Source: Pelomonas aquatica
GTDB lineage: Bacteria; Pseudomonadota; Gammaproteobacteria; Burkholderiales; Burkholderiaceae_C
Assembly (NCBI RefSeq): GCF_026712205.1
Contig: NZ_JAPPUW010000005.1
Coordinates: forward strand, 1 to 64,000
Direction of reading: 5' to 3'
DNA: 64,000 nt
The position numbers and the translations under genes are program-made. The first letter of the stretch is position 1; each line of letters opens with the position of its first letter. A model generated the notes under the pieces. The model was not told the DNA's origin, ran no database searches, and worked only from the letters and a program-made list of their open reading frames with translations. Positions 54,194 to 62,848 of the stretch are shown piece by piece.

Positions 54194-57100
54194 TCACTCG
54201 GCCTTCGTGCGCGGCTGCACCGGCCGCGGATACGGCCCGGGCCTCACCTGCGGCACCGGCTGTGCGGCGATGCGCCGCTTCAGCTCGGCGATCGCCGCGT
54301 CCAGCTGCGCGTCCTGGCCCATGAAGCTCGCGCGCGGCGGGTTGTCGACCTCGATGTCGGGCGACACGCCGATGCCTTCGATCAGGAAGCGGCCGTCGGC
54401 GTCGATCTGGCCGTCCTCGGCGGCGCGCATGATGCCGTTGTCGAGCAGGCGGTTGCCGTCGGACAGCCACACGCCCGCGCCCGAGCTGCGCCTGCCGATG
54501 ACGGGGCCGATCTTCAGGCGCTTGAAGCCCTCGGAGAAGGTCTCGCCGTCGGAGTAGGTGTCCTCGTTCATCAGCACGACCGTGTGGCCGCGGAACACGT
54601 TCTGCATATTGGCGTAGACCGGCGCGCCGGCCGGCGAGCGCGGCTGCCAGAAGGCCCAGGCGCGGCGCAGCAGCTTCTCGAGGATCCAGCTGTCGATGTT
54701 GCCGCCGTTGTTGTAGCGCACGTCGATGATGAGGCCGTCGCGGTCGCTGGCGGCGTAGAACTCGCGCACGAAGTCGGCGATGTCGGCCGGCCCCATCGCG
54801 CGCAGATGCACATAGCCGATGCGGCCCTGGCCGGCCTGCTCCACGGCGCGGGCGCGGCCGACGCGCCAGTCGTTGTAGCGCAGCTGGTTCTCGCGCGGCT
54901 GGGCCACCGGCGTGACGATGCGCTGCACCGTCTTGCCGCCGGCCAGTCTCACCTCCAGCAGCACCTGGCGGCCGGCCTGGCCGCGCAGCAGCTCCAGCAG
55001 ATGGGGCGCGCCGGCCGTGGGGCGGCCGTTCAGCGTCGTGATGACGTCGCCCACCTTCAGCCCCAGGCCGGGCGCGGCCAGCGGCGCGGCCTCGGACGGC
55101 AGCTCGGGGTCGGCGCCGTAGATGGCGTCGATGCGCCAGCCGTCGGCCACGCGCGAGAAGCGCCCGCCCAGGCCGGCCAGGCCGGGTTCGTCCGGCCCGT
55201 TGCGCGTGTCGCCGGGGCCGACCTGGCTGTGCAGCGCGCCCAGCTCGCTGACCATCTCGGCCATCAGCTCGGCCAGCTCGTAGCGGTCCGTCACGCGCTC
55301 CACCAGCGGCTCGTATTTGGCGCGCACGGCCAGCCAGTCGACGCCGTGCATCTTGACGTCGTAGAAGTGGTCGCGGTGCATGCGCCAGGCGTCGGCGAAC
55401 ATCTGCTTCCACTCGGCGCGCGGCTGCGTGGCGATCTGCCAGTCGCTCCAGCGCACCTGCGCCTTGGCCAGCTCGGCCGGCAGCTTGGGCGCCGCGTCGA
55501 CGATGAGAACCTCGGGCGCCGCGCCGCTGCCCTGGTTGCGCACCAGCATCAGCTTCCTGCCGTCGGCGCTCAGCTCGTATTCGCGCACGTCGCCGGCCAG
55601 GGTTTCGGCCGGGCTACCCTGGTTGTCGATGGCGACGGACTTGAGCTGGCTCTTGCCGTCGAGGTCGCGGTCCAGGAACCACAGCCGCTTGCCGTCCGTG
55701 CGCAGCGCATGGAAGTCGCCGGCCGGCAGCGGCAGCTCGAACAGGCGCTCGGCGAGGCCATCGAAGGCGATGGCGGGATTGGGCTTCTTCTCGGGCGCCT
55801 TCTTGCCGTCGGCGCCGGCCTTGTCGTCGGCCTTTTTCTCGGCGGGCGTCTCCAGCTCATCCCTGGCCGCGAACGGCGAGCGCAGGCCCGGCTGCAGGGC
55901 CAGCGCGTAGAGCTTGCTGCGCAAGCCGAAGAAGGGGCCGGTGTTGCGGTCGCCCCAGGGGGCGCTGCCGCCGGTGGTCGCGAAATTGCGCTTGGACGCG
56001 AGGTAGAGCCAGTGCCCGTCGGGGCTGAAGGCGGCGGCGTCGCTGTCGTAGCGGTCGCTGGTCAGCGTGTGCGTGCGGCCATCGGCCACGCTGTAGAGCT
56101 GCAGCTGGCTGCGGTCGACCTGGCGCAGCGGGCGGGCCCAGACCAAGGCCTGGCCGTCGGGGCTCCAGGCCAGCAGTTGGGGCGGGTCGCCGACGCTGCC
56201 GTGGGCGATCTCGCGCGTTGCCGTGGCGGCGGGGGCCTTCAGGTCGGTCAGCCAGATGCGACCTTCCTTGTCGGTGTGGGCGATCCAGCGGCCGTCGGGC
56301 GAGGGCATCAGGTTGCGGCGCTGCGTCGTGGCGCCGCTGGTGATGCGCTCGGGCTGGCCCGTGCCGTTGGCCGCGAAGCGCCAGATCTCGGTCTCGCCGC
56401 TGAAGTCGCAGATGCCGAACACGCTCTTGCTGTCGGCGCTGAACTCGGCCTTGCGGCAGCGGCCGTCGGCGGGCTGGGGCAGTTCGGCGCGGCGCAGCTG
56501 CTGCACGCCTTGCGTCGCGAGATGGCCGCGCGCCGCGAGCAGCGCGCGTTCGCCATTGGGCGCGAAGGCCGTGTCGGTCAGGAAGTCCTGCGGCTTCTTG
56601 ACCCAGCGCTCGCGCTGCTGGTCGAAGTCGCCGCCGAGGGCGATGTCGAGCTTGCGCGGCGCGGCGGCCTGGGCCAGGTCGACGAGCCAGAGGTCGGCGC
56701 CCAGCGCGTAGACGACGCGGCTGCCGTCGATGGACGCGTGGCGGATGTCCCAGCCCCTGTGCGTGGTGTGCTGGCGCAGGTCGCCGCCCTGGGCATTGAC
56801 GCTCCAGACATTGACCGTGCCGTCGCGGTCGGACAGGAAGGCGACGCGCTCGCCGGCCGCCGTGGCATAGGGCATGGGGCGGCGGTCGTTGTTGCCCTCG
56901 GCCAGCAGCGGCCGGGCCTCGGCATTGCCGGCCAGGTCCAGCGCCCACAGCCGCGCGATGGCGCCGCCGCGGTACTGGCGGGCGTTGTCGCTGCGCAGGC
57001 CGCTGCGCGTGAAGTACAGCGTCCTGCCGTCTGCGCTCAGCGCGCCGTCGCTGGCCTGGCCCACGGGCAGCTGGCGGCGCTGGCCGGTGCCCGCGTCGAT

Positions 57101-57502
57101 GGCGAACAGCTGGGTGCCTGGGCGGCCGTCCAGGCCTGTATAGACAACTTCGCCGGCCGCCGTGAAGCCCCAGGCCTTCATGCCGCTGCCTTCCCAGGTC
57201 AGCCGCTTCGGCACGCCGCCGCCGGCCGGCATCAGATAGAGCTCGGTGCCGCCGTCGTACTGCGCAGTGAAGGCCAGCCATTGGCCGTCGGGCGACACCA
57301 CGGGCTGGCTCTCCAGCCCCGGGTGGGTGGTCAGGCGCCGGGCTTCGCCGCCCTGGGCGCCGACGCGCCAGAGGTCGCCCTCGGCGACGAGATAGACCTG
57401 GTCGCCGCGCAGCGCGGGCTGGCGATAGAAGCCGCTGCTGCCGGCCCAGGCGCTGGTGGCGCACAGTGCGGCGGCGAGGGCGGCAAGACGGAAACGGGGC
57501 AT
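54194..57502 (-). CDS. tricorn-type S41 peptidase
   Basis: A 1102-residue exported protease. Signal peptide MPRFRLAALAAALCATSAWAG; two beta-propeller regions (about 25-370 and 375-650) with many WD/SPDGxW repeats; then a PDZ-like domain (about 850-920, AAPLAAPGLGLKVGDVITTLNGRPTAGAPHLL) and an S41 catalytic domain (about 930-1060). The nucleophile Ser is at about 984 in NEDTYSDGETFSEGF. A low-complexity Lys/Ala patch interrupts the propellers. Tricorn-like proteins degrade peptides into short products. ATG at 57502. Confidence 0.9.
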   Translation of the reverse strand: MPRFRLAALAAALCATSAWAGSSGFYRQPALRGDQVYLVAEGDLWRVGAQGGEARRLTTHPGLESQPVVSPDGQWLAFTAQYDGGTELYLMPAGGGVPKRLTWEGSGMKAWGFTAAGEVVYTGLDGRPGTQLFAIDAGTGQRRQLPVGQASDGALSADGRTLYFTRSGLRSDNARQYRGGAIARLWALDLAGNAEARPLLAEGNNDRRPMPYATAAGERVAFLSDRDGTVNVWSVNAQGGDLRQHTTHRGWDIRHASIDGSRVVYALGADLWLVDLAQAAAPRKLDIALGGDFDQQRERWVKKPQDFLTDTAFAPNGERALLAARGHLATQGVQQLRRAELPQPADGRCRKAEFSADSKSVFGICDFSGETEIWRFAANGTGQPERITSGATTQRRNLMPSPDGRWIAHTDKEGRIWLTDLKAPAATATREIAHGSVGDPPQLLAWSPDGQALVWARPLRQVDRSQLQLYSVADGRTHTLTSDRYDSDAAAFSPDGHWLYLASKRNFATTGGSAPWGDRNTGPFFGLRSKLYALALQPGLRSPFAARDELETPAEKKADDKAGADGKKAPEKKPNPAIAFDGLAERLFELPLPAGDFHALRTDGKRLWFLDRDLDGKSQLKSVAIDNQGSPAETLAGDVREYELSADGRKLMLVRNQGSGAAPEVLIVDAAPKLPAELAKAQVRWSDWQIATQPRAEWKQMFADAWRMHRDHFYDVKMHGVDWLAVRAKYEPLVERVTDRYELAELMAEMVSELGALHSQVGPGDTRNGPDEPGLAGLGGRFSRVADGWRIDAIYGADPELPSEAAPLAAPGLGLKVGDVITTLNGRPTAGAPHLLELLRGQAGRQVLLEVRLAGGKTVQRIVTPVAQPRENQLRYNDWRVGRARAVEQAGQGRIGYVHLRAMGPADIADFVREFYAASDRDGLIIDVRYNNGGNIDSWILEKLLRRAWAFWQPRSPAGAPVYANMQNVFRGHTVVLMNEDTYSDGETFSEGFKRLKIGPVIGRRSSGAGVWLSDGNRLLDNGIMRAAEDGQIDADGRFLIEGIGVSPDIEVDNPPRASFMGQDAQLDAAIAELKRRIAAQPVPQVRPGPYPRPVQPRTKAE

Positions 57503-57880
57503 TCGGCTCTCCTGAAAGTGGCGCGATTGTGTGAGCCGGCTACAAGCGGGCGATTCGTCACATCGATTGAACCTAGAAACGGCAGTTGACCGCTCGCTAT
57601 TCATCGGCAGTCTCAGTGCGTCCATGTCTTGCTCATTGCGCAAAGTTCACCACGCCGTTGGGCAGCGCTGCCCGCCCGCTGGACCGCCGCTTCGGGCCGC
57701 CGGCTGCGTTGCTCCTTCTCGTGGGCACGAGCCCACTTCGTCGTCGCGCCTTGCCGGCAACCCGCCTCGGCGGCCCCTCGGGCGCGCCCAACTGCCGTTT
57801 CTAGGTTGAATCCGGGGGCGGGGGCGCGCCGTAGAGCACTTCAGATGCCAAGCCGGCATCGCCTCACACAGGATGCCCCC
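57503..57880. other. gene-free stretch holding a MITE-like element
   Basis: The 378 bp between the divergent tricorn and DUF4331 genes contain no gene. Most of it (57572-57805) is the inverted-repeat element described separately. The remaining 75 bp before the DUF4331 start includes a short GCCCCC leader with AGGATG as its ribosome site, and promoters for both sides must lie in the flanks or inside the element. Confidence 0.5.
57572..57805. mobile_element. 234-bp MITE-like element with 16-bp inverted repeats
   Basis: The ends are perfect inverted repeats: CCTAGAAACGGCAGTT at 57572-57587 and AACTGCCGTTTCTAGG ending at 57805. Direct repeats TTGAA flank the element on both sides (57567-57571 and 57806-57810), fitting a 5-bp target duplication, though their AA/TT bases also extend the inverted repeat by two. 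Inside are a 14-bp palindrome GGGCAGCGCTGCCC (57660-57673) and a hairpin GTGGGC-ACGA-GCCCAC (57721-57736). There is no credible coding frame. Non-autonomous transposition is inferred. Confidence 0.7.
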
Positions 57881-59419
57881 ATGAAAGTTCGACTCACGCG
57901 CAGCGCCCTGGGCGTGGCGCTGCTCTGCCTGGCCTGCGCGGCCCAGGCTTCCAGCCACCGCGAAGCCCCCTTCATCACGACCGTGCCCAAGGTCGACGCG
58001 ACGGACTTCTATATGTTCCGCAGCTACGAGGCCGGCCGCGACGGCTATGTGACGCTGATCGCGAACTACCAGCCGCTGCAGGACGGCTATGCCGGCCCGA
58101 ACTATTTCTCGATGGACCCGAACGCGCTCTACGAGATCCACATCGACAACGTCGGCGATGCCAAGGAGCATCTGAGCTTCCAGTTCCGCTTCAAGAACAC
58201 GCTGTCCAACAACGGCGCCGGGACGGCGCTGACGATCGGCGGCAAGCAGGTCGACATCCCGCTGATCCAGTCCGGCGCGGTGTCCAACGTGAAGGACGCC
58301 AACCTGCAGGTCAACGAGAGCTACACGCTGACCGTCGTGCGCGGCGACCGCCGCGTCGGCACCGCGCAGCCGGTCAGCAACGCGGCCAACGGCGCGACGA
58401 CCTTCGACAAGCCGGTCGACAACATCGGCAAGAAGACCATCGCCGACTACGCCGCCTACGCGGCCAAGCACATCTACACGGTCAACATCCCGGGCTGCGG
58501 CATGCCGGGCAAGCTCTTCGTCGGCCAGCGCCAGGACCCGTTCGCGGTCAACCTCGGCACCATCTTCGACCTCGTCAACGCGCCCGTCTCGGTCCTCACC
58601 GACCCCAGCCAGATCAATGCGGTGCCCAACGCCCTCGCGGACAAGAACGTCACGACGCTGGCGCTGGAGGTCCACAAGGACTGCCTGAAGTCCTCGCCGA
58701 GCGGCGGCGACGTCATCGGCGGCTGGACGACGGCCAGCCTGCGCCAGGGCCGGCTGATCAACCCCAAGCCCGGCAGCGGCCATCAGGCGAGCGAGAAGCC
58801 CGGCGGCGCCTGGGTGCAGGTGTCGCGCCTGGGCATGCCCCTCGTCAACGAGGTCGTCATCGGCCTGAAGGACAAGGACAAGTACAACGCCTCCAAGCCC
58901 AAGGACGACGCGCAGTTCCTCGACTACGTGACCAACCCGACGCTGCCCGCCCTGCTCGAGATCGCGCTGGCCCTGCCCAACACGGCGCCGACCAACTTCC
59001 CGCGCAACGACCTCGTGACGGCCTTCCTGACCGGCATCAAGGGCGTCAACCAGCCAGCGGGCGTCGTCGCGTCCGAGATGCTGCGGCTGAACACGGCGAT
59101 CGCTCCCGTGCCCTTCGCGCAGCAGAACCGCCTCGGCATCGTCGGCAACATCCTCGCCGGCGGCAGCGACAGCGCGGGCTTCCCCAACGGCCGCCGACCC
59201 AAGGACGACGTGGTCGACATCTCCCTCGTCGCGATGATGGGCGGCCTGTGCATGGCCAACGGCGATACCGACAAGCTCGGCTTCGGCGCGGCCTGCAAGC
59301 CCTCGGCCGTGCCGCTGGGCGCCACGGCCTTCAAGCTGCACGACGGCGTCGACCAGGCCGTCGTGCCGCTGCTGCCGGCCTTCCCCTATCTCAACACGCC
59401 CATCCCGGGCACCAAGTGA
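57881..59419 (+). CDS. DUF4331 family exported protein
   Basis: A 512-residue secreted protein. The signal peptide ends AAQA, after which the mature protein begins SSHREAPFITTVPKVDATDFYMFRSYE, the DUF4331 hallmark, with further family blocks PNYFSMDPNALYEIHIDN and FAVNLGTIFDLVN. Several Cys residues and Asp-rich turns suggest metal or disulfide stabilisation. The function is unknown. Start at 57881 fits the signal peptide and an AGGATG site. It leads a four-gene operon with a small lipoprotein, a TPR-like protein and a HupE-type protein. Confidence 0.9.
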   Translation: MKVRLTRSALGVALLCLACAAQASSHREAPFITTVPKVDATDFYMFRSYEAGRDGYVTLIANYQPLQDGYAGPNYFSMDPNALYEIHIDNVGDAKEHLSFQFRFKNTLSNNGAGTALTIGGKQVDIPLIQSGAVSNVKDANLQVNESYTLTVVRGDRRVGTAQPVSNAANGATTFDKPVDNIGKKTIADYAAYAAKHIYTVNIPGCGMPGKLFVGQRQDPFAVNLGTIFDLVNAPVSVLTDPSQINAVPNALADKNVTTLALEVHKDCLKSSPSGGDVIGGWTTASLRQGRLINPKPGSGHQASEKPGGAWVQVSRLGMPLVNEVVIGLKDKDKYNASKPKDDAQFLDYVTNPTLPALLEIALALPNTAPTNFPRNDLVTAFLTGIKGVNQPAGVVASEMLRLNTAIAPVPFAQQNRLGIVGNILAGGSDSAGFPNGRRPKDDVVDISLVAMMGGLCMANGDTDKLGFGAACKPSAVPLGATAFKLHDGVDQAVVPLLPAFPYLNTPIPGTK

Positions 59420-59430
59420 AGGAGGCCGTC

Positions 59431-59694
59431 ATGCGAAGCCTGTTTTCGGCATCGGCGGCCCTGGCCGCCGGCCTGGTGCTCGCGGCCTGTGGCGGAGGCG
59501 GCTATGGCGACGGCGGCATGGCGCCGGCGCAGACGCCGGCCGCCGCCACGGCCGTGCCCGACAGCGCCATCGCGTCGGCCGCGGCGATGGTGAGCTACCT
59601 CAACGCGCTGCCGGCCCAGGACGGCGTGGAGCCGCTCGCGCTGCCCAGCGCGGACGTGGCCGTCAGCGAGACCGACGAGCCCCAGCCGCTGTGA
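59431..59694 (+). CDS. small lipoprotein of the DUF4331 operon
   Basis: An 87-residue lipoprotein: signal MRSLFSASAALAAGLVLAAC with lipobox LAAC, a glycine tract (GGGGYGDGG) and an Ala/Pro-rich mature part. No domain is recognised. A GGAGG ribosome site sits 5 bp before the ATG. It is 11 bp after the DUF4331 stop and overlaps the next gene by four bases. It may serve as an outer-membrane tether for the system. Confidence 0.75.
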   Translation: MRSLFSASAALAAGLVLAACGGGGYGDGGMAPAQTPAAATAVPDSAIASAAAMVSYLNALPAQDGVEPLALPSADVAVSETDEPQPL

Positions 59695-60854
59695 CCATGG
59701 CGCGCCTGCCCCTTGCCCTGCTGCTGGCGGCGGGCGCGCTGACGGCCTCGGCCGAACCCTTCGTGCCCAGGGACGACGCCGAGATCGTGCAGCGCCTGCC
59801 CTATCGCATCGACGCCGCCGAGCGCGCGCGCCACGCGGCCCTGGCGCGCGACCCGGCCCAGCTGCCGCTGGCCGCCGCCGCCGCGCGTGCCGCGCTGCAG
59901 CGCGCCCGCGTGCATGGCGACCCGCGCGAGCTCGGCGTGGCCGAGGCCGCGCTCGCGCCCTGGTGGCCGCGTGCCGATGCGCCGCCCGAGGCCGTGCTGC
60001 TGCGCGCCCATGTGCTGCAGGCCCGCCACGAGTTCGACGCGGCCCAGGCCGAACTGCATGGCCTGCTCGCGCGCGGCGGGCTGGACGACGCGCAGCGCGC
60101 CCAGGCCCTGCTCGACGCCGCGGCCCTGCACCAGCTGCGCGCCGAACTGCCCGAGGCCCGCGCGCTGTGCGAGCAGTTGCGGCCGCTGGCCGCCCGGCCC
60201 GCCGCGGCCTGCCTGGCCGAACTGGCCAGCCTGTCCGGCCAGGCCGCCGCCGCCGCGCGGACGCTGGCCGGCCTGGGCGCCGGGCGCGGCCTGGCCCCCG
60301 ACCCCTGGCTGGCGCTGATGCGCGCGGAGCTGGCCGAGCGCCTGGGCGACGAAGCCGCCGCGCCGGCCCTCTACCGCCTGGCCCTGGCCGGCGAAGACGC
60401 GGTCTACACCCGTGCCGCCTGGGCCGACTGGCTGCTCGCGCGCGGCCGCGCCGCCGAGGCGCTGGCGCTGCTGGAGCGCAGCCCCGATGCCGAGGCCGAC
60501 GCGCTGCTGCTGCGCCGCGCCATCGCGCTGCGCCAGCTCGGCCGCCCGGCAACGCTGATGGAGCGCCTGCGCGAGCGCCTCGCCGCCGCCGACCGCCGCG
60601 AGCCCGGCCGCCACGCGCGCGAGCAGGCCCGCTTCGCCCTCGACGTGCAGGCGCAGCCGCACGAGGCCCTGCGCCTGGCCCGTGTCAACTGGGCCCTGCA
60701 GCGCGAGCCGGCCGATGCGCTGCTGCTGCTGCGCGCAGCCCTGGCGGCCGGGCGCGACGGCGACGCGACGCGGGCGCAGCTCGCACGGCAGCTGCGCGAC
60801 AAGGGCTGGCAGGATGTGCGCCTCACCGCCCTCGACAGGAGCTTTGCGTCGTGA
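59691..60854 (+). CDS. TPR-like exported protein of the DUF4331 operon
   Basis: A 387-residue protein with a signal peptide (MARLPLALLLAAGALTASAEP) followed by a helical repeat array of about 300 residues, rich in Ala/Leu/Arg, in the style of tetratricopeptide repeats (AQAELHGLLARGGLDDAQRAQALLDAAALHQLRAELPEARALCEQLRPLA). Repeats are degenerate. Start: GTG at 59691 overlapping the previous TGA (GTGA), or ATG at 59697. It ends in an overlap with the next gene, again GTGA. Likely a scaffold for the exported partners. Confidence 0.75.
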   Translation: MTMARLPLALLLAAGALTASAEPFVPRDDAEIVQRLPYRIDAAERARHAALARDPAQLPLAAAAARAALQRARVHGDPRELGVAEAALAPWWPRADAPPEAVLLRAHVLQARHEFDAAQAELHGLLARGGLDDAQRAQALLDAAALHQLRAELPEARALCEQLRPLAARPAAACLAELASLSGQAAAAARTLAGLGAGRGLAPDPWLALMRAELAERLGDEAAAPALYRLALAGEDAVYTRAAWADWLLARGRAAEALALLERSPDAEADALLLRRAIALRQLGRPATLMERLRERLAAADRREPGRHAREQARFALDVQAQPHEALRLARVNWALQREPADALLLLRAALAAGRDGDATRAQLARQLRDKGWQDVRLTALDRSFAS

Positions 60855-61951
60855 TCCGTTGGCTGTTGCTGCTGCTGTTCTGCACCGCGGCCCAGGCCCA
60901 CCAGTCCAGCGAGGCCTACCTGAGCTATCGCGTGGACGGCGCCGAGGTCGAGCAACGCCTGGACATCGCGCTGCGCGACCTCGACCGCGACCTCGCGCTG
61001 GACGCCGACGGCGACGGCCAGCTGAGCTGGGGCGAGGTGCGTGCGCGCTGGCCCGACATCGAGCGCCTGGCCGCCGAAGGCCTGCGCTTCACGGCCGATG
61101 GCGCCGCCTGCCGCGCGCTGGACCGCGCGCCGCCCCAGCTCGATGAACACAGCGACGGCACGCACGCGGTGCTCGTCGGCCACTGGCGCTGCGCGGCGGC
61201 CGTGCACGAACTGCAGATCGACTACCGCCTCTTCGCCGCCACAGACGCCGGCCACCGCGGCCTGGCCCGCCTCGTCGGCGCGGCGGGCGAGCCGCTGCTG
61301 CTGGTGCCCGGCGCCGGCCCGCAGCGGCTGGGCACCGAGAGCCGCGGCTTCGCCGGCTTCGTCGCCGAGGGCATGGCCCACATCGCCAGCGGGCTGGACC
61401 ATGTGCTCTTCCTCGTCACCCTGCTGCTGGTGGCCGTCTGGCGCCGCGACGGCGCGGGCTGGGCGCCGCGGGCCGGCGCGCGCGGCGCCTTCGCCGAGAC
61501 GCTGAGGCTGGTCACGGCGTTCACGGTCGCCCACTCCATCACGCTGGGCCTGGCCGCCGGCGGCGTCATAGCCCCGCCGTCGCGCTGGGTCGAGTCGCTG
61601 ATCGCGCTGACCGTGCTGCTGGCCGCGCTGGACAACCTGCGCCCCTTCGTGCCGGGGCCGCGCTGGAGCATGGTGGCCGTCTTCGGCCTCGTGCACGGCG
61701 TGGGCTTTGCCGGGCCGCTGAAGGACCTGGGCCTGCGCGGCCACGAACTCGTGCTGCCGCTGCTGGGCTTCAACCTCGGCGTGGAGCTGGGCCAGCTCGC
61801 CGTCGTCGCGCTGCTGCTGCCGCTGGCCCTGCTGCTGAGGGCCCGTGCGGCCTACCGGCGCTGGATCGTACCGGGCGGCTCAAGCGCCATCGCGGCGCTG
61901 GCCACGCTGTGGCTGGCCGAGCGCAGCCTGGCGCTGAACCTGCTGCCCTGA
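60851..61951 (+). CDS. HupE/UreJ-type membrane protein with EF-hand
   Basis: A 366-residue protein. A signal peptide or first helix (MIRWLLLLLFCTAAQA) is followed by an exported domain of about 150 residues with a canonical 12-residue calcium loop, DADGDGQLSWGE (51-62). The C-terminal half has about six membrane helices with HupE/UreJ-type motifs: EGMAHIASGLDHVLFLVTLLL, TAFTVAHSITLGLA, VFGLVHGVGFAGPLKDLGL and GFNLGVELGQLAVV. HupE is linked to nickel/cobalt uptake. Start GTG at 60851 overlaps the TPR stop. Metal import is inferred only. Confidence 0.85.
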   Translation: MIRWLLLLLFCTAAQAHQSSEAYLSYRVDGAEVEQRLDIALRDLDRDLALDADGDGQLSWGEVRARWPDIERLAAEGLRFTADGAACRALDRAPPQLDEHSDGTHAVLVGHWRCAAAVHELQIDYRLFAATDAGHRGLARLVGAAGEPLLLVPGAGPQRLGTESRGFAGFVAEGMAHIASGLDHVLFLVTLLLVAVWRRDGAGWAPRAGARGAFAETLRLVTAFTVAHSITLGLAAGGVIAPPSRWVESLIALTVLLAALDNLRPFVPGPRWSMVAVFGLVHGVGFAGPLKDLGLRGHELVLPLLGFNLGVELGQLAVVALLLPLALLLRARAAYRRWIVPGGSSAIAALATLWLAERSLALNLLP

Positions 61952-61957
61952 GAGGGC

Positions 61958-62848
61958 TCAGCCGGCCGCCACGCCCGCGGCCACCTGGCCGGCCGGCACA
62001 TGGGCGGCCGCGCTCTCGACGTGGCCGGCCTGGTCGTCGAAGAAGAAGTCGGGCTCGAACTCGCGCAGGAACTCGCCCTTGGCCAGGCCGCCGAGGAACA
62101 TGGCCTCGTCGACCTCGATGCGCCAGTCCATCAGCGTGCGGATCGCGCGCTCGTGGGCCGGCGCGCTGCGTGCCGTGACCAGGGCCGTGCGGATGCGCAT
62201 GCCGGGCTCGTGCTGCAGGCGCTGCAGGGCCTCCAGCACCGGCTTGAAGGGGCCGGCCGGCAGCGGCTGGCGGGCGCGCTCGCTCTCGTGCTCGCGGAAG
62301 GCCGCGAGGCCGTCGCGCTGGTAGACCTGCTCGGCCTCGTCCGAGAACAGCACGGCGTCGCCGTCGAAGGCGATGCGCAGCTCGCCGGGGTGTTCGGCCG
62401 AGGCCTGGCGGGACAGCGGCATCACGCGCGCCGCGGCCACGCCGGCGGCCAGCGCCGAGCGCACGTCGGCCTCGTTGGCGGACAGGAAGAGCTGGGCCGA
62501 CAGCGGCCGCAGATAACGCCACGGTGCCGCGCCGCGCGTGAACACGCCGCGCTCGATGGACAGGCCGTAATGGGCCGCCGAGCGGAACACGCGCATGCCC
62601 GAGATCGGGTCGTTGCGCGACAGCACGACCACCTCGACGCGCGGCACGCCGCCGGCGTTGAAGGCCAGCAGCTTCTTCACGAGCGAGAAGGCCACGCCGG
62701 GCGGCGCCGGCTCGTCCAGGCGCTGCTGCTGCAGGGCCATATAGGCATGATCGTCCTCGGCCTCGAAGACCTGGTTCTCGGCCTCGAAATCGAAGAGGGC
62801 GCGCGAGGAGATGGCGACGACGAGTTGGCCGGAGAGCGTGGCAGGCAT
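61958..62848 (-). CDS. 5'-nucleotidase (cytosolic, NT5C1-like family)
   Basis: A 296-residue protein of the 5'-nucleotidase family (PF06189 type) that dephosphorylates nucleoside monophosphates. Recognisable parts: LVVAISSRALFDFEAEN near the N-terminus, VEVVVLSRNDPISGMRVFRSA, LRPLSAQLFLSANEADVRSAL, then HAD-like LRIAFDGDAVLFSDEAEQVY with the nucleophile Asp and a C-terminal FFFDDQAGHVESAA, the metal-binding Asp pair. Convergent with the HupE gene, separated by 6 bp. Confidence 0.85.
   Translation of the reverse strand: MPATLSGQLVVAISSRALFDFEAENQVFEAEDDHAYMALQQQRLDEPAPPGVAFSLVKKLLAFNAGGVPRVEVVVLSRNDPISGMRVFRSAAHYGLSIERGVFTRGAAPWRYLRPLSAQLFLSANEADVRSALAAGVAAARVMPLSRQASAEHPGELRIAFDGDAVLFSDEAEQVYQRDGLAAFREHESERARQPLPAGPFKPVLEALQRLQHEPGMRIRTALVTARSAPAHERAIRTLMDWRIEVDEAMFLGGLAKGEFLREFEPDFFFDDQAGHVESAAAHVPAGQVAAGVAAG

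Follow-up and report, generated by a model that had tools for sequence, protein, structure and literature searches.

A four-gene envelope operon pairing a DUF4331 protein predicted to start with an X-X-His site and an anglerase-type HupE permease: a candidate copper or nickel capture system

Positions 57881–61951 (+ strand) of the 64,000-nucleotide stretch of Pelomonas aquatica DNA analyzed here (the window) hold four tightly packed genes for a DUF4331 protein, a small lipoprotein, an exported tetratricopeptide-repeat (TPR)-like protein, and a HupE/UreJ_2-type membrane protein. Given two predicted N-terminal histidine sites—an X-X-His start on DUF4331 and a His1 on HupE—we take the set to be a probable trap for copper (or nickel) on the outer side of the inner membrane. 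Judging from predicted sequence features and a structural model, we lean toward reading the operon as an envelope Cu(II)/Ni(II) capture relay that feeds a permease, with copper the most likely cargo and nickel second. In such a relay, DUF4331 would pick up the metal, either at the surface or within the periplasm, the acidic-Pro tail of the lipoprotein would hold DUF4331 near a membrane, and the TPR protein would dock the carrier. The ion would then leave the X-X-His site for His1 and be imported through the HupE domain, import being the presumed direction of transport.

The sequence-only reading had proposed four same-direction genes, and each lies at the proposed place and strand. The DUF4331 gene (57881–59419) is separated by an 11-base gap from the lipoprotein gene (59431–59694), which runs into the TPR-like gene (59691–60854; alternative start ATG 59697), itself overlapping the HupE gene (60851–61951). 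The two overlaps are the GTGA strings already reported, at 59691–59694 and 60851–60854. By eye, every product either bears an export signal (signal peptide or lipobox) or looks like a membrane protein, in agreement with the earlier claim that all are exported or in the membrane.

The first gene is a clear, full-length member of PF14224 (493.8 bits against a cut-off of 27, E=6.9e-148, profile positions 1–421 of 421). It encodes 512 aa; the window's closest named match, Pelomonas sp. Root1237, is 87% identical in the best DUF4331 segment. An X-X-His sequence at a free N terminus constitutes the amino-terminal Cu(II)- and Ni(II)-binding (ATCUN) motif: The free amino terminus and the third-position His grip Cu(II) or Ni(II), and such sites prefer Cu(II). 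The mature DUF4331 protein (489 aa) is predicted to begin, after AQA, with Ser-Ser-His (codons 57950–57958), an ATCUN-type start. The literature searched assigns no function to DUF4331 or PF14224, whose Pfam name denotes unknown function.

Conservation of this start extends across the family. An H-x-[ED]-A-P motif is present in 108 of 114 DUF4331 open reading frames (ORFs), the other six being short distant members or fragments. Ala stands three places before the motif His in 108/108, with A/V/S at −3 in 103/108; the next best offset reaches only 27/108. Because Ala always precedes His by three places, an AxA-type cut would leave His at +3. S25, H26, E28, A29, and P30 are invariant in 11/11 rows of alignment A1, whose rows were not selected by the motif. 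Alignment A3 (44 rows) was selected and cut with the motif, making H3, A6, and P7 identical by construction; S2 (44/44), E5 (44/44), and R4 (42/44) are free of that bias. Distant short members still have a predicted His at +3 (SDH after ALA in L144; ADH after LIA in L148), and L145 and L146 show HH at +2/+3 under a plausible cut. In an AlphaFold2 (AF2) model (mean predicted local distance difference test score, pLDDT, 81; predicted template-modeling score 0.86), residues 1–9 have pLDDT <50, so their conservation is not obviously for folding. A fold assignment for DUF4331 was sought in the PDB and set aside, as nothing convincing emerged (best Foldseek E 0.066; best VIA Z 5.1, mostly antibody rows).

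The last gene is anglerase-type as modeled, its HupE/UreJ_2 permease domain being fused to an Ang-1-like ectodomain that bears the predicted His1. PF13795 (HupE_UreJ_2) matches the C-terminal residues 170–331 at 155.4 bits (cut-off 24.5), placing the transmembrane domain at 61358–61843. A model of the mature protein built from 21 sequences (mean pLDDT 90) has as its best PDB match 9GCE, Cu-loaded RbAng-1a (Foldseek E=4e-6; VIA Z 11.1 over 135 residues, root-mean-square deviation 3.3 Å, 17% identity). Next, at Z 8.3–8.9, come the zinc-containing structures of ZrgA and PA4063. A sequence/profile search of the PDB returned weak rows only, some of them EF-hand proteins, with 9GCE absent; it was the fold search that found 9GCE.

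The predicted His1 codon lies at 60899–60901, where cleavage after AQA would expose HQSSEAYL. An automatic rule predicted His at +1 in 54 of 66 HupE ORFs; it scored the window and 11 other ORFs at a later site, although an earlier His start is visible by eye. Since alignment A2 (21 HupE rows) was cut at His1, its His1 column is by construction, hence a separate recount; there, two ORFs were unscored, two were fragments, and the residue before His is not shown for L070. Invariant in 21/21 A2 rows are C71, C98, H119, H161, D167, H168, H212, and H266 (mature numbering), the last five within the transmembrane domain.

The gene set recurs across genomes. DUF4331 itself is patchy (presence counted at E≤0.001), occurring in 11/150 and 26/399 genomes of the order and 22/398 of the phylum; from the search results we read 23 of the 399 order genomes as holding a strong or full-length copy. 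For the order and near relatives we fetched 91 loci, 11 sampled and the best 80 of 591 named-genome matches, a set biased to close relatives. TPR lies beside DUF4331 in 61 of these 91, and HupE is also present in 57 of the 61; of the four without it, L021, L075, and L103 stop at a contig end and L018 has room. In the phylum sample, both TPR and HupE adjoin DUF4331 in 10/14 full-length loci. A recurrent DUF4331–TPR–HupE neighborhood, a check set beforehand, was therefore found, and chance clustering is ruled out by it. Gene order varies: L022 reads HupE–TPR–DUF4331, and L020 has DUF4331 on the opposite strand. Genome-wide, TPR is present in 22/23 DUF4331 genomes vs. 21/376 others, the sole miss (G543) being 68% complete. 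TPR is found elsewhere in 22 of 29 genomes with a TPR-less DUF4331 locus (two as partial matches only); co-occurrence of the partners thus extends to cases without adjacency. Among the 43 TPR genomes, 21 lack DUF4331, and 20 of these have sequence upstream of TPR (L201 is cut at a contig edge); L200 was treated apart, as DUF4331 lies elsewhere in its genome (G386).

Several loci depart from the common layout. L065 and L034 each hold two DUF4331 genes; in L065 only the second precedes lipoprotein, TPR, and HupE. At the solo DUF4331 loci L055, L066, L079, and L095, a common ORF cluster with an exported-looking N terminus lies just downstream. A SnoaL-like gene, named by eye, stands between lipoprotein and TPR at L016:9081–9503, and the TPR gene at L033:9545–10935 is split into two overlapping ORFs, a possible frameshift or assembly error. 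The TPR label itself comes from relatives: TPR_19 is matched by 10/18 family members (alignment A4), one of the relatives gives a weak match to a Slam TPR model, and no Pfam TPR is found in the window's own member.

The lipoprotein (87 aa) matches no Pfam family. Its gene has AAGGAGG upstream and a lipobox (LAAC followed by GGGG) with Cys20 at 59488–59490, and its acidic-Pro tail (59617–59691; QDGVEP... SETDEPQPL) is a degenerate two-copy motif. A lipobox candidate follows 72/94 DUF4331 genes, many without TPR, at least one of these (L083) being an out-of-frame artifact. Our LIPO profile caught out-of-frame ORFs, so we counted afresh by lipobox, ranking the candidates in favor of acidic-Pro tails. 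Of the 72, 69 show one or more loose acidic-Pro motifs within their final 45 aa, a figure inflated because the motif partly determined the ranking. Under a stricter regular expression, a lipoprotein follows 67/107 DUF4331 genes—49/73 in TPR loci and 18/34 in TPR-less ones. When the 1.2 kb preceding TPR in the 20 loci without DUF4331 was scanned for lipoboxes, only three strings turned up, in two loci, and they look out of frame. The lipoprotein gene travels with DUF4331, not with TPR–HupE, giving two modules: TPR with HupE (exception L018) and lipoprotein with DUF4331. At L130, L131, L133, L134, L135, L138, and L141, the slot is taken by a lipoprotein of greater size, which has a tail like SRxAF...PLxxNGR and, judged by eye, contains a cadherin-like/Ig-type domain.

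Lys-rich X-X-His peptides and DUF4198 are two exchangeable partners within this arrangement. A small Lys-rich exported protein with a predicted His at +3 lies within 3 kb of TPR–HupE in 18 of the 20 DUF4331-less loci. These 18 loci span eight family codes; most of the peptides have 50–125 aa, their predicted mature starts are ASH, AKH, AAH, MSH, or GSH, and 15/18 lie on the opposite strand. A signal-peptide-like ORF with His at +3 occurs in 9/502 control windows of 3.3 kb (Fisher value 9e-25, shared ancestry ignored). Counted by ORF, the frequencies are 21/40 vs. 13/302 in the control (Fisher value 3e-14, with the same proviso); the 21 include two ORFs, one in L191 and one in L197, that are something other than Lys-rich peptides. 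These counts supersede an earlier control (18/322 ORFs) that mixed units and included tested loci. Against MXKDX (TIGR02953), eight of the Lys-rich peptides gave 42.0 bits for L196 (cut-off 41), 33.4 for L159, 15.6 for L187, 14.4 for L189, and no match for four. At L157, L186, and L194, several Lys/Ala/Glu-rich small exported paralogues stand by TPR–HupE, with a mixed record of His at +3. At L191:4761–5791, DUF411 and plastocyanin/azurin-type genes, both of which we class as copper-type, adjoin TPR–HupE and its X-X-His peptide, a hint of copper from one locus. DUF411 is frequent in copper-resistance clusters.

A DUF4198 gene (HDxW/HEFW start) lies within 2 kb of DUF4331 in 11/40 TPR-less loci vs. 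0/71 TPR loci. The 11 are L142, L143, L034, L037, L055, L089, L092, L096, L098, L100, and L146 (of the distant short DUF4331 type). A first DUF4198 model gave additional matches to overlapping-frame ORFs in five of the TPR loci (L032, L057, L081, L087, and L101); a model from trimmed sequences was free of these artifacts, recovering the 11 loci and, in addition, L200, where DUF4198 adjoins TPR–HupE. DUF4198 also lies ~1–1.5 kb from TPR on the same contig in G772, G775, G779, and G781, with G770 below the Pfam cut-off.

This exchange of partners admits a bolder form of the relay, which we advance tentatively. TPR–anglerase permeases may draw on exported carriers that can replace one another and have only their first three residues as a defining feature, with an N-terminus-to-N-terminus relay. 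As both DUF4331 and the unrelated, Lys-rich MXKDX-like microproteins are predicted to start X-X-His, selection would in that case have arrived convergently at an ATCUN trap for Cu(II).

The same peptides bear on metal buffering or detoxification, in which X-X-His proteins would soak up excess Cu(II) and the anglerase–HupE protein would sense, recycle, or dispose of what they bind instead of importing a nutrient. The exported peptides with His at +3 in 18/20 loci, being small, charged, and repetitive, suit a buffer, as do the copper-type neighbors in L191 and the MXKDX relatives MsrX and BcrX, which protect against hypochlorous acid (HOCl) sacrificially (PMC8315932). On the other side, the role described for HupE/UreJ domains is that of nickel permeases, and their knock-outs point to metal supply (PMC12537917); we consider buffering unlikely. 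The neighbors at these loci were BLAST-clustered and are mostly unannotated, so nothing follows from that clustering on efflux pumps or sensors.

N-terminal metal sites can also be catalytic, as in lytic polysaccharide monooxygenases. DUF4331 could accordingly be a Cu/Ni enzyme or structural metalloprotein loaded by TPR and anglerase–HupE, and its 73 invariant columns in the 44 A3 rows and sizeable predicted fold would suit such a role. Yet in place of DUF4331, TPR–HupE is also paired with small, low-complexity peptides, which are hardly enzymes, and DUF4198 stands beside DUF4331 in the 11 TPR-less loci. Metalloenzyme maturation strikes us as rather improbable.

On the metal itself, copper is favored over nickel because the host lacks hydrogenase and urease matches, RbAng-1a prefers Cu2+, and ATCUN sites prefer Cu(II). 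RbAng-1a binds Cu2+ (dissociation constant, Kd, 74 nM) more tightly than Ni2+ (220 nM), holding Cu by His1 and Asn41, the latter not highly conserved (PMC12537917). Nickel uptake for enzymes such as NiFe hydrogenase or urease would suit the HupE/UreJ name, the nickel-permease role already cited, and the DUF4198 neighbors; DUF4198 is a family of secreted His1 proteins whose member IsDUF4198 (PDB 9GCB) binds Ni2+ with a Kd of 18 nM at a His1/His18 site (PMC12537917). The window's own genome (G000, 99.99% complete), however, has no NiFe hydrogenase (PF00374) or urease alpha (PF00449) match. Nor are these enzymes commoner in TPR+ genomes: Strong hydrogenase matches (E<1e-100) occur in 4/40 TPR+ vs. 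8/40 TPR− genomes (Fisher value 0.35) and strong urease matches (E<1e-40) in 19/40 vs. 20/40 (Fisher value 1.0). The comparison covers NiFe hydrogenase and urease only, uses 40 of the 43 TPR+ genomes (three poorly complete ones left out), and takes its TPR− set nonrandomly from listed genomes. Uptake dedicated to nickel enzymes is, on these counts, very unlikely.

The EF-hand loop pattern comprises 12 residues with D1, D/N3, D/N5, G6, and E12. The HupE ectodomain contains such a loop, DADGDGQLSWGE (61001–61036; mature residues 35–46), which matches the pattern in the window; the strict form is present in 54/70 HupE ORFs. Mature position 41, the number borne by the Cu ligand Asn41 in RbAng-1a, falls inside this loop. 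In A2, D35 (D1) and E46 (E12) are present in 21/21 rows and D39 and G40 in 20/21. The calcium loop noted by the sequence-only reading is real as a conserved element, but the window protein misses the Pfam EF-hand cut-off (PF13202; 11.5 vs. 25.9 bits). Such a loop belongs to this HupE ectodomain in general; on its own it gives no indication of the transported metal, and it probably stiffens the ectodomain, perhaps with Ca2+. A calcium-linked system that builds a surface structure around this loop, for which the invariance of D1 and E12 speaks, is scarcely credible, since the loop belongs to the ectodomain across the relatives examined, the four proteins of the window match no Pfam secretion or assembly family, and both N-terminal histidine sites would be left unexplained. 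Of the earlier proposal of an uptake or assembly system, possibly metal-linked, metal-linked uptake fits the recurrence and the N-terminal-His evidence; assembly gained no positive support.

Several observations weigh against the capture relay. Cleavage sites come from a home-made AxA rule rather than SignalP or N-terminal sequencing, and the Fisher values for the peptides treat related loci without regard to shared ancestry. L198 and L199 have no Lys-rich His+3 neighbor, and some Lys-rich paralogues start otherwise: AKP in L157, AQP and TES in L186, and ADA in L194. MXKDX-type peptides are known from other settings as scavengers of hypochlorite. L018 has DUF4331 and TPR with no HupE nearby despite room, the invariant columns and fold of DUF4331 exceed the needs of a simple carrier, and an RNA element search found no known element at the operon (regulators were not searched for).

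The operon is bounded on the left by a divergent S41/tricorn-type protease gene (54194–57502, − strand) and on the right by a convergent 5'-nucleotidase gene (61958–62848, − strand). BLAST clustering of neighbors, few of them annotated, gave nothing solid by way of further conserved genes beyond the four, being swamped by frame and antisense artifacts of GC-rich DNA. Between the protease gene and DUF4331 lies an element resembling a miniature inverted-repeat transposable element (57565–57812; 248 bp), with 29-nt inverted ends that are 90% complementary; it stops 68 bp short of the DUF4331 start. Counting this one, the host genome has 10 copies of 216 bases or more (75–100% identical), plus shorter pieces. 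The element may provide or upset the operon promoter.

Taken with the comparative data, DUF4331, functionless in the sources searched, becomes a candidate copper/nickel protein, tied to the anglerase permeases described in 2025 (PMC12537917). If the relay is right, it would constitute a carrier-to-permease trace-metal route in the envelope of various Pseudomonadota and a metal source for anglerases; were the carriers interchangeable as well, this would be a first function for DUF4331 and a new bacterial copper acquisition route.

Among known systems, the closest is Ang-1 anglerase–HupE/UreJ-2 (RbAng-1a, 9GCE). The window protein resembles it in its signal peptide followed by a predicted His1, its Ig-like ectodomain fold, and its C-terminal PF13795, and DUF4198, among the reported Ang-1 neighbors (PMC12537917), is seen here too. 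It differs in that the ectodomain is only 17% identical over the structural alignment, in sharing an operon with the DUF4331, lipoprotein, and TPR genes—an arrangement unmentioned in the main text of PMC12537917—and in its EF-hand-like loop, neither EF-hand nor calcium being discussed in that main text. DUF4198 (IsDUF4198, 9GCB) is likewise an exported N-terminal-His metal protein and adjoins DUF4331 in the 11 TPR-less loci and TPR–HupE in L200, but it lies outside the window's operon, and its site is His1/His18, not X-X-His. MXKDX repeat proteins (TIGR02953) partly resemble the small peptides at DUF4331-less TPR–HupE loci, with 1/8 over the cut-off; their studied members are linked to HOCl resistance (PMC8315932), and none is seen in the window's operon. 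With HupE/UreJ nickel permeases the last gene shares the membrane-domain family and conserved His/Asp residues, whereas its large ectodomain and a host without NiFe hydrogenase or urease matches set it apart. Within DUF4331 (PF14224), to which the first gene clearly belongs, the ATCUN-type predicted start and the partner swapping are new here.

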